Shown here piece after piece: positions 51,402-55,876 of a DNA stretch of 64,000 bases. The stretch's first letter is position 1, and every line of letters begins with the position of its first letter. The DNA is from Myxococcus stipitatus. Its GTDB lineage: Bacteria; Myxococcota; Myxococcia; Myxococcales; Myxococcaceae. The stretch covers positions 9,930,501 to 9,994,500 of the forward strand of contig NZ_CP147913.1 in the NCBI RefSeq assembly GCF_037414475.1, in the 5' to 3' direction. A program made the position numbers and the translations under genes. The notes beneath the pieces are model-generated. The model made no database searches. It had not been told where the DNA came from and saw nothing but the letters and a program-made list of their open reading frames with translations.

Positions 51402-52295
51402 CTAGCTGACGACCGGGAGCGAGAAGCCCGAGGTCCCCTGGCTCGCGGGCTTCGTCACGCCCGCCGCCTCGTTCAACCGGCCGGAACGGAACGGCTCCAG
51501 ATCCAACGCCACGAACTTGAACCCCAGGGCCAGGAAGGCCGAGTTGATCCGCTGGCGCACGTCCACGGAGAGGAACTTCTCGTACTCCTCGGCGGCCACC
51601 TCCAGCCGCGCCACCTCGCTGTGGTAGCGCACGCGGAACTGGCGGAAGCCCAGCTTGCGCAGCTCCGACTCGGCCGAGGCGATCTGCAACAGCCTGTCCC
51701 GCGTCACCGCCGTGCCGTAGGGGATGCGCGACGCCAGGCACGCCATCTGAGGCTTGTCCCACGTGGGCAGCCCCAGCGCCTGGCTCCACGCGCGAATCTC
51801 CTCCTTCGTCAGCCCCGCCTCCGCCAGCGGCGACACCACCGCGTGCTCACGCGCCGCCTTGTGCCCGGGCCGGTGGTCCTTGAAGTCGTCCGCGTTGAAG
51901 CCGTCCAACACCACCGCCAGCCCCAGCTCCGCGCGGCGGGCCTCGCAGATGTCATACAGCTCGGTCTTGCAGAAGTAGCAGCGGTTGGTGGGGTTGGCCG
52001 CGTACTGGGGGTTGGCCAGCTCGTTGCTGCCGAGGACGACATGCCGGGCGCCCAGCCGCTCCGCCAGCTCACGCGCCTCCTGCGCCTCTTCGGGGGCCAC
52101 CGAGGCCGACAGCGCCGTGAGCGCCAGGGCCCGCTCCCCCAACTCCTCCACCGCCACCTTCAGGACGAAGGTGGAGTCCACGCCGCCCGAGAAGGCCACC
52201 AGGGCACTGCCATGGGCGCGCAACGAGGCACGCATCGCCTCCAGTTTCGGTCTCGACGACTCACACAGGGCCTGGATTCGCTCGGGGCTCAGCAT
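51402..52295 (-). CDS. larE: ATP-dependent sacrificial sulfur transferase LarE
   Basis: A 297-residue PP-loop enzyme with an AGGAG site six bases before the ATG. PP-loop SGGVDST binds AMP. Cys106/Cys109 (NRCYFCKTELY) and C186 in CLASRIPYG match LarE; the last aligns with the sacrificial Cys of Lactobacillus LarE, which gives its sulfur to the pincer cofactor of lactate racemase. No larA, larB or larC is in the window, so the acceptor is unknown and another sulfur use is possible. The hairpin at 52315-52357 precedes it. Downstream is a barrel protein. Confidence 0.93.
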   Translation of the reverse strand: MLSPERIQALCESSRPKLEAMRASLRAHGSALVAFSGGVDSTFVLKVAVEELGERALALTALSASVAPEEAQEARELAERLGARHVVLGSNELANPQYAANPTNRCYFCKTELYDICEARRAELGLAVVLDGFNADDFKDHRPGHKAAREHAVVSPLAEAGLTKEEIRAWSQALGLPTWDKPQMACLASRIPYGTAVTRDRLLQIASAESELRKLGFRQFRVRYHSEVARLEVAAEEYEKFLSVDVRQRINSAFLALGFKFVALDLEPFRSGRLNEAAGVTKPASQGTSGFSLPVVS

Positions 52296-52314
52296 GCGGG
52301 ACTCCTAAAACGGA

Positions 52315-52357
52315 AGGGCCCCGGATTGCACGCGCATCACGCGGCAATCGGAGCCCT
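52315..52357 (-). terminator. terminator between the CysC-like gene and larE
   Basis: A long, nearly perfect inverted repeat with a one-base bulge: AGGGC-CCCGGATTGC against GCAATCGGAGCCCT. On the minus strand it is followed by TTCCGTTTT. It lies 20 bases upstream of the larE start and so could also act as an attenuator. Confidence 0.6.
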
Positions 52358-52396
52358 CTTCACTGCCTGGAACGAGGGCCTGCACGGCCCCCTGAC

Positions 52397-53179
52397 TCAG
52401 CGGCCCTTGCCCTTCGCGGACTTCTTCGCCGCGGGCGTCGGCTTCGCGACTCGCGCTGCCCGCGTGGCCGGACGCGACTTGGCGCCCTTGTCCGCCTTCG
52501 CCGCCTTGGCGGCCGCCTTCGGCTCCTCCGCCCGGCGCGCCTTGGCCCCACCCTTTTCGGCCTTCTCAGCCTTCTCGGCCTTCTCACCCTTGGCCGGCAG
52601 CGGGTTGGCCTTCATCTTCTTGCCGGTGATGATCTTCAGCTCCTCCGTGGTCATGTAGCCAAGGTCCAGGAGCGACTGGAAGATCTTCGCCGCGCCGTCC
52701 TCCACGGACTCCACGTCGGAGTGGATGGTCACCTCGGGCGAGGTGGGCGGCTCGTAGGGCTCGGTGATGCCCACGAAGTTGGGGATCTCCCCGTTGAGCG
52801 CCTTCTTGTAGCGGCCCGTGCTGTCGCGCTCGATGAGCTTCTCGGTGGGGCAGTCGACGTAGACCTCGACGTACCGGCCGATGCTCCGGCGATTCTCCTC
52901 GCGCTTCGCCTTGTACGGGCTCACGCAGGGAACCAGCGCCGCGACGCCATTGCGCGTCAGCACGTTGGCGACATAACCCAGCCGCCCGGCAATCGTGTTG
53001 CGCTCCTCCTTGGAATCGCCCAACCCCGCCCACAGCTCATCGGCGAGCTCGCCCTCATCGAGGATCTCCACATTGCGGCCCACCTGACGGAGCCGCGCCG
53101 CGATGTAGGCGGCAGTGGTGCTCTTCCCGGTACCAGACATGCCGGTCAGCCAGAGGGTGAATCCAGTGTTGGAGGCCAT
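52397..53179 (-). CDS. adenylylsulfate kinase-like protein (CysC-like) with basic tail
   Basis: A 260-residue protein starting MASNTGFTLWLTGMSGTGKS. Walker A is GMSGTGKST. CSPYKAKREENRR and FVGITEPYEPPTSPE match the CysC region that binds APS. The first substrate motif is changed: CysC has DGDNVRHGL and here it is DEGELADELW, and the ENIRR-like stretch is altered. So it may phosphorylate another substrate. The C-terminal about 60 residues are Lys/Ala-rich with repeated KAE units. APS kinase normally completes sulfate activation to PAPS. Preceded by a promoter-like sequence at 53259-53287 and followed by a terminator. Its neighbours handle sulfur. Confidence 0.83.
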   Translation of the reverse strand: MASNTGFTLWLTGMSGTGKSTTAAYIAARLRQVGRNVEILDEGELADELWAGLGDSKEERNTIAGRLGYVANVLTRNGVAALVPCVSPYKAKREENRRSIGRYVEVYVDCPTEKLIERDSTGRYKKALNGEIPNFVGITEPYEPPTSPEVTIHSDVESVEDGAAKIFQSLLDLGYMTTEELKIITGKKMKANPLPAKGEKAEKAEKAEKGGAKARRAEEPKAAAKAAKADKGAKSRPATRAARVAKPTPAAKKSAKGKGR

Positions 53180-53369: not shown

Positions 53370-53394
53370 TTTTCAGACCCTGCGCGTCTGAAAA
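53370..53394. repeat. inverted repeat over the JAMM gene stop codon
   Basis: TTTTCAGAC (53370-53378) and GTCTGAAAA (53386-53394) form a perfect 9-base stem with a 7-base loop. The stop codon lies within the left arm. It could protect the 3' end or end the operon transcript, though no T-run follows on the minus strand. Confidence 0.6.
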
Positions 53395-53801
53395 TCGCCA
53401 CCTCGCCACTCATACTCGGACACCCAGGTGACCCGGCCCCGGTGTACGGATGCAATGAGATAGGAAACTCCCGGCAGGAGCGGATGCCCCGTCGGAGCAG
53501 CCTGGGCGCGGTCTTCCGCCGAGAAGGTGGGGGGCGCGTCCACATGCGAGTGGAACACCGTGACGACCTGTTCTCCTCGTGACTCCACCTCGAGGCAGAG
53601 CGCCAGCCACTCCTCGGGTGCGAAGGCGTAGGCCCGCGTGGGACAGGGCGAGGCGTTACGCAGGGGGCAAACGCGCCACGCCCCCTCCCGAGCACCCTGG
53701 AGGATCACGCCACAGCCCTCGTGCGGGTAGCTGCGCTCCAGATGCCGGAGGAGCTCCTCGCGCACGGCTTCGGGCCAGCGCGAATCCGGCCAGGTCGTCA
53801 C
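53373..53801 (-). CDS. JAMM/MPN metalloprotease
   Basis: A 142-residue protein with a GTG start that overlaps the stop of the E1-like gene (GTGA). JAMM zinc site: E28 (PHEGCGVI), H84 and H86 with S94 and D97 (HSHVDAPPTFSAED, i.e. HxHx7Sx2D). Length and motifs match the small bacterial Mec+/CysO-type JAMM enzymes, which remove an amino acid (cysteine) from a ThiS/MoaD-like carrier or trim its tail. The neighbouring carrier already ends in Gly-Gly, so release of a bound product is more likely than maturation. Last gene of the operon. Confidence 0.9.
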   Translation of the reverse strand: MTTWPDSRWPEAVREELLRHLERSYPHEGCGVILQGAREGAWRVCPLRNASPCPTRAYAFAPEEWLALCLEVESRGEQVVTVFHSHVDAPPTFSAEDRAQAAPTGHPLLPGVSYLIASVHRGRVTWVSEYEWRGGDFQTRRV

Positions 53802-54439
53802 GGCGAGGCGGGACCCTGACGAGCGGTGCACCGAGAACAGAGCCGCAGCTCCATCTCCTCCAGGTTTCCGGGGGGGACCAGCCACCGGCCCCCCAACGCG
53901 GGACCCAGTCCCAGACGGAGCCGCTGGAACACCACGGCGCCCAGCGCGCCCAGCGCCCCGCCCAGCGCGCCGTCTGGAGGAGAGCCGAGATGCCGCACCG
54001 TCTCCCCGAAGCACCAGACACACCCCTCGGGGCCGCGGAACACCACGCCCGCCCGAGCACCGTCCCCACAGAGCGCGACCCAGGGGGCATCGCCGCTCCA
54101 GGCCGAGGGCAGCTCCGCGAGCATTCCTCCGCTCGCCTGTGGGTTGGCCGCGTCCGGGTTCAGCGCGGGCACCTCGCGCGCCAGCGCCGAGGCGACGGGC
54201 TGCCCCACGTCGGCCGCGGACACCAGGAAGCCCGGGGACCAGGGGCCCATCGTCAGCGAGCCCACTCCCGCCACGGGCGTCCCTCCCCCGACGAGATACG
54301 CGGCCGCGGTCAGCCCCGAGGCCCCCGTGGCATCCACCCGCGCGCCACCGGCCAGGAGCGCCTCCTGGCCACGCCCCCCCACCTCGCGCAGGAGGATCTG
54401 CCGGGAGTAGCGAAGAATCTGATCTTCACGCAGGGCCAT
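53798..54439 (-). CDS. degenerate E1-like (ThiF/MoeB-related) protein
   Basis: A 213-residue protein. It keeps the N-terminal arm of the family, MALREDQILRYSRQILLREVG, with R13 where MoeB has its trans-acting Arg14. The glycine loop is changed to GASGLT (from GLGGLG), the ribose-binding Asp region reads VAGVGSL, and GQPK is GQPV (Lys lost). Two Cys pairs remain that match the zinc site (C140/C143 and C201/C204). The catalytic Cys region is absent. I infer an inactive partner subunit that completes the active site of the other E1 paralogue. It starts 6 bases after the carrier gene and overlaps the JAMM gene. Confidence 0.82.
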   Translation of the reverse strand: MALREDQILRYSRQILLREVGGRGQEALLAGGARVDATGASGLTAAAYLVGGGTPVAGVGSLTMGPWSPGFLVSAADVGQPVASALAREVPALNPDAANPQASGGMLAELPSAWSGDAPWVALCGDGARAGVVFRGPEGCVWCFGETVRHLGSPPDGALGGALGALGAVVFQRLRLGLGPALGGRWLVPPGNLEEMELRLCSRCTARQGPASP

Positions 54440-54445
54440 GTGTCA

Positions 54446-54718
54446 TCAACCTCCCGCCATCGCGGGAATGAGGGTGAGGCGGTCCACGTCCTTCACCGGG
54501 GTGTCCAGGGCCTCCAGGCCGCGGATGTCCTCGTCGTTGAGGAAGACGTTGACGTAGCGCCGGACGGCGCCGTGCTCGTCCAGGAGCTTCACGCCGATGC
54601 CCGGGTAGCGCGCGTCCAGGTCCTTCAGCACCTCGCGAACCGTGGTTCCAGAGGCCATCACCTCCGCCTGGTTCCGCGTCAACGGGCGCATCGTCGAGGG
54701 GATCCGAATCGTCGCCAT
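54446..54718 (-). CDS. ThiS/MoaD-type sulfur carrier protein
   Basis: A 90-residue beta-grasp protein starting MATIRIPSTMRPLTRNQAEV. TTVREVLKDLDARYPGI, VNVFLNDEDIRGLEALDTPV and the final RLTLIPAMAGG match the MoaD/ThiS family. The C-terminal Gly-Gly is the site that E1 enzymes adenylate and convert to a thiocarboxylate. It starts with the RBS region between two genes: 7 bases after TusA and 6 bases before the degenerate E1. It would be the sulfur donor for a cysteine-, thioacid- or homocysteine-type product. Confidence 0.92.
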   Translation of the reverse strand: MATIRIPSTMRPLTRNQAEVMASGTTVREVLKDLDARYPGIGVKLLDEHGAVRRYVNVFLNDEDIRGLEALDTPVKDVDRLTLIPAMAGG

Positions 54719-54725
54719 GGCGCCC

Positions 54726-54965
54726 TCACCCGCCCTGCTTGCGGAGCACCAGGCGGTGCGTGCCATCCTCGCGCGCCTCGAGGGAGACGACCTCATGCCC
54801 CTCCTCCCGCGCGCTGCGAGGCACGTTCTTCAGGGGCTCGGAGCCTCGGAGGATGATCTCCAACAAGGCCCCCGGAGCCATCGCCTCCAGCCGAAGCTTC
54901 GTGCGCACGTAGGTCATGGGACAGACCTCTCGGGTGATATCCAGCGTCGCCACGGGCTCACTCAT
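54726..54965 (-). CDS. TusA-family protein with C-terminal Gly-Gly
   Basis: A 79-residue protein of the TusA/SirA fold. The active motif is CPMTYVRTKL, with C15 as the persulfide Cys. LEIILRGSEPLKNVPRSAREEGHEVV follows the usual fold. The C-terminus reads LRKQGG, a Gly-Gly end that is unusual for TusA proteins, which commonly end in a beta strand. It may pass sulfur to the carrier or the E1 enzyme. Second gene in the operon, 18 bases after the MoeB-type gene and 7 bases before the carrier gene. Confidence 0.92.
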   Translation of the reverse strand: MSEPVATLDITREVCPMTYVRTKLRLEAMAPGALLEIILRGSEPLKNVPRSAREEGHEVVSLEAREDGTHRLVLRKQGG

Positions 54966-54983
54966 GATCCACGCCCCCGTCCC

Positions 54984-55751
54984 TCATCGCGCGCATGCGC
55001 CCTCCTCGCCCGGAAACGCGGGCACATCGCTGACGGCGCAGCCGGGGCACTCGGGGGCACGCACGACACGGGTCCGCCGTCCCAGCAGCGTGAGTCCATC
55101 CAGCACCTGCAACAGGGCCTCGCCGGGAACCCGCCGCGAGGCCCCCGCCAACAGCTCCAGCACCATCAGCGCCTGCACCGCGCCGACCAGCCCCGCGAGC
55201 GAGCCCAGCACTCCGGCCTGCGCACACGTGGGCACCGCATCCGGCGAGGGCGGCGTTTCATAGAGGCACCGAAGACACGGGCCGCCCGGCTCCACCCGCA
55301 TCGCCTGCCCCTGCATCCGCAGCACCCCGCCGTAGACCAGCGGCACCCCCGTCAGCACCGCCACGTCCGAGAGGAAGAACTTGGTCAGCACCCCATCCGT
55401 CGCGTCGATGACGGCGTCGTGCGCGCGGAAGAGCCCCTCCACGTTGTTCGCGTCCACCCGCTCGGGCAGCGCCTCCGCGGACAAGGCCGGAAACGCGCGC
55501 GCGAGCCCCGCCACCGCGGACTCCGCCTTGTTCCGGCCCACGTCCCCAGGCCGGTGCCACAGCTGCCGGGGCAGGTTCGTCACGTCGACCTGGTCCGGAT
55601 CCGCCAGCGTCAAGTGCCCGACACCCGCCTGGGCCAGCGCCAGGGACGCGGGACAGCCGAGCCCACCGGCGCCCACGATGAGCACCCGTGAGCGCTCGAT
55701 ACGGGAAGCCTGGGGAATTCGAGGATGGTGATGCTCTTCTGGACCGTGCAT
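54984..55751 (-). CDS. MoeB/ThiF-type E1-like adenylyltransferase
   Basis: A 255-residue protein starting MHGPEEHHHPRIPQASRIE. A longer frame upstream is not supported. The nucleotide loop GAGGLG (27-32), LADPDQVDVTNLPRQL with Asp and Arg, GRNKAES with the Lys, and the C176 region VPTCAQAGVLG (catalytic Cys) are intact. Zinc Cys are C159/C162 and C235/C238. The N-terminal arm RYNRQI of MoeB is missing: 22 residues precede the first strand. It adenylates the C-terminal Gly of the carrier protein. First gene of the five-gene operon; upstream is a divergent lipoprotein gene 125 bases away. Confidence 0.92.
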   Translation of the reverse strand: MHGPEEHHHPRIPQASRIERSRVLIVGAGGLGCPASLALAQAGVGHLTLADPDQVDVTNLPRQLWHRPGDVGRNKAESAVAGLARAFPALSAEALPERVDANNVEGLFRAHDAVIDATDGVLTKFFLSDVAVLTGVPLVYGGVLRMQGQAMRVEPGGPCLRCLYETPPSPDAVPTCAQAGVLGSLAGLVGAVQALMVLELLAGASRRVPGEALLQVLDGLTLLGRRTRVVRAPECPGCAVSDVPAFPGEEGACAR

Positions 55752-55876
55752 CGATTGCTGCTCCGCGAGGGCGGATGCGAATAACGTGCGGGGCCCTGCG
55801 TCGCACCTTGCGACAGAGGGGCTCAAGCGCCCCTTCCACCGTCCCGCTTCGCGGCGGACTCCCTCTGCCAGGACAT

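Follow-up and report, generated by a model that had tools for sequence, protein, structure and literature searches.

A putative two-gene E1, split into an active and an inactive half, in a sulfur-carrier operon of Myxococcus stipitatus and its relatives

The closest described relatives of the proteins treated here, MoeB and ThiF, act as homodimers, with ATP bound by both subunits (PMC12355090) and with an N-terminal arm and an active site in each. We analyzed a stretch of 64,000 nucleotides from the Myxococcus stipitatus genome (NCBI RefSeq assembly GCF_037414475.1, contig NZ_CP147913.1, positions 9,930,501 to 9,994,500; hereafter the window), in which arm and active site were split over two genes of one operon. 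One gene product, E1a, had the fold and active site of MoeB and ThiF, and the other, E1b, had kept their arm. It is likely that E1a and E1b together form an obligate heterodimeric E1 and activate the CysO-like carrier encoded in the same operon; from the sequences, the recurrence of the complementary pattern, the selection on E1b and a predicted complex, which are shown below, we infer that the complex forms in the cell and is catalytic, as well as its sulfur source, its product and its evolutionary origin.

A division into an active and an inactive half is known from the eukaryotic E1s SAE1-UBA2 and NAE1-UBA3, and from the single-chain UBA1 and UBA6. The adenylation residues of Uba6 include an arginine from its inactive half (PMC9391358). 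The M. stipitatus pair likewise consisted of one half with an intact nucleotide site and one half without it, and by structure prediction E1b resembles human SAE1, while the model of both halves together can be superposed on chains of the UBA1 type. It differs from the eukaryotic enzymes in having neither the catalytic Cys half-domain nor the ubiquitin-fold domain, and its carrier is a sulfur carrier. In the yeast Tcd1-Tcd2, an inactive ThiF domain lends an arginine finger to an active partner (PMC13139853). This is also a heterodimer of an inactive and an active ThiF domain, but it is eukaryotic, acts on tRNA, and its Tcd1 retains the ThiF domain and a C-terminal domain. BilD, a bacterial antiphage E1, carries an inactive and an active adenylation domain in one chain (PMC11354881), which also has a catalytic Cys domain, whereas E1a and E1b were encoded by two genes in a cysteine/sulfur operon. 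This distinction was drawn from the description of BilD in a review.

The operon resembles the CysO-CysM-Mec-MoeZ system of mycobacteria in its CysO-like carrier, its JAMM protease and, in the operon of relatives, a cysteine-synthase-type pyridoxal phosphate enzyme. The two systems differ in the E1, which in MoeZR is a single protein that includes a rhodanese domain (PMC3227635) and here is encoded by two genes and accompanied by TusA. A 2006 operon survey described ThiS/MoaD-E1-JAB types with and without cysteine synthase, in which a single E1 is fused to rhodanese; its entry “Adeh” may be a myxobacterium (PMC1779556). Among the titles and abstracts listed by our searches of the open PMC literature, none described an active/inactive E1 encoded by two genes in a sulfur-carrier operon of a bacterium, and no biochemical work on this pair was found. 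The preliminary description of this DNA had considered that such a division would be new in a bacterial sulfur-carrier operon. The division as such is already known, from eukaryotes and, in one chain, from BilD; what appears to be new is its two-gene form in a bacterial sulfur-carrier operon.

E1a carried a single ThiF domain (residues 16–235). Its Pfam ThiF match started only at profile position 16, and its alignment with E. coli MoeB (1jw9) began at residue 29. In MoeB, Asp62 acts at the ribose. E1a retained GAGGLG, NLxRQ, GRNK and DATD as well as the cysteine in the Cys187 region, and kept all the MoeB-site residues named in a review, Gly41, Arg73, Lys86 and Asp130 (PMC12355090). Of the features that define MoeB/ThiF-type E1s, those of the ThiF adenylation domain (GxGGxG, Arg73, Lys86, Asp130) were present and the RYxRQ arm with Arg14 was missing. 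The same was seen in the relatives: GxGGLG and the equivalents of Arg73, Lys86, Asp130 and Cys187 were invariant in 26/26 aligned E1a, and the arm was found in 0/26. Among the distinct E1a recognized by motif, NLxRQ and the Lys were present in 74/74, the Asp motif in 73/74 and the Cys in 72/74, counts that are partly built in, because the E1a and E1b classes were set by motifs. E1a stayed below the NCBIfam equivalog cut-offs, with 210 vs 449 bits for PRK08762 (MoeB) and 180 vs 275 bits for adenyl_thiF.

The preliminary description had considered that the arm of E1a might be intact if a correct upstream start were used. Upstream of the E1a ATG (55751), the sole in-frame start within 300 bases was a TTG at 55826, and neither E1a nor the 100 residues encoded in frame ahead of it contained an RYxR[QH] arm. 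An alternative start can therefore not restore the arm, and this possibility was rejected.

E1b showed the complementary losses. Its N-terminus, MALREDQILRYSRQILL, aligned to MoeB and ThiF across the arm (E about 1e-5), with Arg13 on MoeB Arg14 and a Val at Lys86. None of the nucleotide-site motifs was present, and the protein remained under the Pfam ThiF cut-off (12 vs 28.1 bits). The complementary pattern first noted for the two genes, active-site motifs without the arm in E1a and the arm without nucleotide-site motifs in E1b, was thus borne out. An E1b profile found ThiF (4.6e-27) and MoeB (5.3e-26) over most of their length. Further matches were Uba4, SAE1, NAE1, the N-terminal half of UBA7 and of human UBA1 (inactive halves), and also the active half of yeast Uba1. 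In the alignment of 28 E1b, the equivalent of MoeB Arg14 (Arg13 in Arg10-Tyr11-Ser12-Arg13) was an Arg in 28/28 and one of five invariant columns. The finger position was an Arg in all 79 distinct arm-bearing E1b, for which the recognition pattern demanded Arg or Lys there. Two CxxC pairs, CVWC and CSRC, which had not been mentioned before, persisted in E1b and presumably have a zinc role.

Counted from the arm, the E1b frame ranged from about 88 to 234 amino acids (excluding frames truncated at the end of a contig or locus, and two that ran into the protease), with the short forms coming from draft assemblies, in which errors could cut a frame. This range suggests that the arm and the C-terminal helix outlive the nucleotide fold. 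Against eight congeners, the ratio of nonsynonymous to synonymous substitution rates (dN/dS) of E1b was 0.09–0.23 in a simple Nei-Gojobori count, and the arm showed little amino-acid change. E1b is under purifying selection. The loss of all nucleotide-site motifs, the Pfam score below cut-off and the great variation in length would suit a functionless duplicate in decay. This reading is hardly credible, given the dN/dS in all 8 comparisons, the arm Arg conserved throughout the alignment and the retention of E1b beside E1a in 76–77 of the 107 classified genomes. A pseudogene was rejected on dN/dS and conservation. In two genomes, E1b and JAMM lay in one stop-free open frame (L070:3366-4358 in G032 and L230:3101-4237 in G146), apparently as natural E1b-JAMM fusions. 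No natural E1a-E1b fusion was noticed among the loci read, for which no dedicated search was made.

The survey comprised 107 genomes of the phylum with classified loci, 67 of them from the window’s own family, and was not a random sample. A neighbouring pair of an armless, active half and an arm-only half was found in 76 genomes, or 77 after correcting G147, which had appeared unpaired through a chance motif upstream of its start. In 26/107 neither half was seen in the loci covered; 35 genomes were searched whole with the E1a profile, not all of the 26 were among them, and the contig of G053 ended inside E1a. Both halves were decayed in two genomes, and three were special, namely G147 and two that were cut by contig ends (G109, G114). 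Pairs were present in the window’s family and in seven others of its order, and also in two families that lie outside the class (f12 and f18; G070, G165). Because it is repeated in 76–77 of the classified genomes, the complementary pattern is not a product of chance. TusA was located between E1a and E1b in 63 of the 76 paired genomes, together with the carrier in 43 and alone in 20; the carrier alone was found there in 9, and neither gene in 4.

An alignment-free motif table of 407 ThiF-type open reading frames (ORFs), in which distinct cores were counted since several loci overlap, gave three clear groups. There were 72 armless cores with 4/4 active-site motifs, at least one of which (L100) was an ordinary E1 with a RYxKQ arm. 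The arm-bearing cores separated into 76 with 0–1 motif and 116 with 3–4 motifs, the latter mostly ordinary single E1s. The other 15 cores were fragments, decayed copies or other ThiF types. Six ORFs were E1b without the arm: three contig-end fragments (G001, G023, G029), and decayed copies in G139 (twice) and G137. A wider contig scan used one short pattern, which also matches ordinary MoeB. Among the 80 loci retained from the matches listed, five (L136-L140, from Citreicoccus, Corallococcus, Myxococcus and Archangium) had E1a and E1b, some of them duplicating survey contigs. At the other loci, among the matches listed, 110 ORFs were ordinary E1s and none was E1a or E1b; the scan thus says little on other phyla. 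A profile search of the phylum matched at least 181 of 195 genomes, but it also catches ordinary MoeB and is not a count of E1b. In two genomes of 2.3–2.7 Mb, far below most of their family (L261 in G153 and L262 in G154), E1a and E1b were adjacent and in the same frame, the matched parts lying 25 and 136 bases apart.

The two genomes in which both halves were decayed (G137, G139) belong to one genus. Their E1a had lost NLxRQ and other active-site motifs, and their E1b had lost the arm, perhaps in a single decay event, as only one genus is concerned. The co-occurrence of arm loss in E1a and site loss in E1b in related genomes, which had been put forward as a check, was seen across the sampled genomes of the phylum, and the joint decay in one genus comes in addition. 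The family of these two has seven further members (G033, G106, G108, G133, G135, G138, G140) in which a whole-genome search with the E1a profile showed an ordinary MoeB, and in the loci covered neither half was seen. These relatives bear on the idea that E1b is a regulator or inhibitor capping E1a, the active enzyme being formed by E1a and another arm-bearing E1 of the cell. Another MoeB-type gene, one with an arm, does exist in the M. stipitatus genome (G000:C1:739791, L001). However, the seven relatives keep ordinary MoeB while having neither half, and E1a and E1b are part of a tight operon, with gaps of 6–18 bases plus an overlap, which makes a capping role very improbable.

The pair was modelled with AlphaFold2 as a single chain, using 22 genomes with E1a and E1b in one frame, read through stops and with the disordered tether left in. 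An alignment of unpaired E1a and E1b rows on the tethered reference was discarded, because the E1b rows landed on the E1a half. The model of the G035 pair had a predicted template modelling score (pTM) of 0.82. Both domains were mostly above 90 in predicted local distance difference test (pLDDT), and the tether (residues 233–315) was below 50. The two blocks of the E1b arm reached a pLDDT of 95 and 94 beside E1a vs 77 and 61 alone, for the same E1b and the same 22 genomes; the arm is predicted to be well ordered only with E1a present. In VIA-align, the whole model superposed on UBA1, UBA6 and UBA7 chains over 372–388 residues, with a root mean square deviation (rmsd) of 2.9–3.6 Å and Z of 26–30, a comparison that does not assign the domains to the UBA halves. 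The superposed UBA residues exceeded what either domain alone holds. E1a alone matched ThiF and MoeB with Z about 30. For E1b alone the nearest structure was human SAE1 with Z 14.9, on a par with ThiF and MoeB at about 15. For the tethered chain, a packing of E1a and E1b of the E1 type is confidently predicted, in which the two adenylation domains may form a pseudo-twofold dimer. Together with the ordering of the arm by E1a, this supports the earlier reading of the two genes as a heterodimeric E1.

In a tree without eukaryotic E1s, E1a fell among bacterial MoeB, and E1b formed one clade on a long branch. Monophyly of E1a was supported with 96/94 in the first tree, and was recovered in 54% of the bootstrap trees with less diverged E1b. 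In the tree with less diverged E1b, a joint clade of E1a and E1b was not rejected by the approximately unbiased test (p-AU 0.346). A single E1 with both arm and active site was found beside TusA and ThiS in G163, from the window’s class, and in two Nitrospirae loci, which fits a duplication inside such an operon. A single-E1 operon of this type is likely the ancestral state. The pair probably goes back to a single MoeB-like gene that was duplicated, with complementary losses in the two copies, and since E1a groups with bacterial MoeB, its origin is likely separate from that of the eukaryotic E1s. Several loci of Nitrospira and other Nitrospirae (within L142-L215) contained two MoeB-type genes at a distance of about 1.8 kb, both of them complete in arm and active site.

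Several points weigh against an obligate heterodimer that arose by duplication. With the long branch of E1b, and with a joint E1a and E1b clade neither rejected nor shown, an origin by duplication is not proven. Foldseek alignments to the same UBA chains were poor (rmsd 11–16 Å, TM-score by query length 0.42–0.55), and the best Foldseek hits of the model covered one domain only. AlphaFold2 knows MoeB and UBA1, the proteins were tethered and there was no E1a-E1a control, and an E1-shaped dimer may be favoured regardless. Three genomes of f5 (L216/G055, L218/G087 and L220/G097) had an extra pair, in which a decayed E1a' stood beside an arm-bearing E1b', indicating that the coupling of the halves is not strict for extra copies. 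Finally, the arginine finger of MoeB and ThiF was reported to be catalytically non-essential (PMC13139853), so that a homodimer might stay functional without the arm. The role of the E1b arm may then be partly structural, and its conservation may be due to positioning or to the finger being needed more in this enzyme. The extra f5 pairs, in which E1a' had lost active-site motifs, had no TusA or ThiS alongside, and an intact pair was also present in the same genomes; in each extra pair, two E1 halves that both appear inactive are retained next to each other.

A dispensable finger would also agree with another reading, in which E1a works as a homodimer that lacks arms. E1b would then have no catalytic part and serve separately as a scaffold or specificity factor that docks, for instance, TusA, the carrier or JAMM. 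E1b adjoins the JAMM gene in many mapped loci, and the two share an open frame in G032 and G146. Against such a scaffold stand the arm Arg, which is invariant in the aligned E1b while the remainder decays, the loss of the arm together with E1a active-site motifs in G137 and G139, and the predicted complex, which places E1b as the second subunit. We consider the scaffold rather unlikely and prefer the obligate heterodimer.

Table 1 Features of the E1a/E1b operon, in positions of the window.
Feature	Position	Strand	Remarks
E1a, putative catalytic half, MoeB-type adenylyltransferase without N-terminal arm	54984..55751	minus	255 amino acids; Pfam ThiF 201.7 bits
TusA-like sulfurtransferase, probable persulfide donor	54726..54965	minus	Pfam TusA 3.2e-20
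CysO/ThiS-type sulfur carrier, 90 amino acids, Gly-Gly C-terminus	54446..54718	minus	Pfam ThiS 2.9e-16
E1b, putative non-catalytic half, 213 amino acids, RYSRQ arm; nucleotide site lost; two CxxC pairs retained	53798..54439	minus	
E1b codons Arg10-Tyr11-Ser12-Arg13	54401..54412	minus	Arg13 corresponds to MoeB Arg14 (arginine finger) by alignment
JAMM/Mec-type metalloprotease, GTG start	53373..53801	minus	Pfam Prok-JAB 1.7e-22 (scored with a start two codons further up)

The operon had the order E1a, TusA, carrier, E1b and JAMM (Table 1). The first four genes were separated by 18, 7 and 6 bases, and the JAMM start overlapped the E1b stop codon. The top PDB match of the carrier was 3dwg chain C (1.2e-19), which we take to be CysO of M. 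tuberculosis. The JAMM protease had four PDB matches, JAMM1 chains among them. In 8/8 relatives read, a PALP-family gene (Pfam), which we read as a cysteine synthase, sat between E1b and JAMM. PALP-type genes of the M. stipitatus genome were found only outside the operon, with at most 43% identity. This gene setting resembles that of a cysteine or sulfur pathway of the CysO-CysM-Mec type, because the carrier is nearest to the CysO structure, JAMM is part of the operon and a PALP enzyme is part of that of the relatives. Downstream of the operon (51402–53179, minus strand) we annotated an adenosine 5'-phosphosulfate (APS) kinase (Pfam APS_kinase) and a PP-loop protein, presumably LarE-like, suggesting that the operon may belong to a larger sulfur cluster. 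An antiphage conjugation operon was also considered and rejected: E1a matched PADLOC E1-E2 models via the E1 domain, and E1b, the carrier and JAMM matched none at E 0.001.

In the proposed heterodimer, E1a would bind ATP-Mg and adenylate the C-terminal Gly-Gly of the carrier. E1b would fill the second place of the MoeB-type dimer, with its N-terminal arm entering the active site of E1a. There, Arg13 would touch the ATP phosphates, like the finger of MoeB and the inactive-half arginine of eukaryotic E1s. TusA would give the sulfur for the carrier thiocarboxylate. A cysteine synthase, adjoining E1b in some relatives and encoded elsewhere in this genome, would form the carrier-cysteine adduct, from which the JAMM protease would release cysteine.

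It has long been asked how a symmetric, homodimeric E1 gave rise to the paired active and inactive halves of the ubiquitin system. A change of this kind seems to have taken place separately in this phylum, with a likely single-gene ancestor, full-length and strongly reduced inactive halves, and joint losses in living relatives. On balance, we lean towards an obligate bacterial heterodimeric E1 that evolved separately and whose inactive subunit is still shrinking to a bare arm-carrier (about 88 to 129 amino acids, in several lineages), so that the phylum would present stages between a homodimeric sulfur-carrier E1 and a labour division like that of the SUMO and NEDD8 E1s. E1b genes, several of which lie under the Pfam cut-off, become recognizable to annotators. 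With such intermediates in living relatives, the order of the losses and the need for an arginine finger would be directly testable in soil bacteria.

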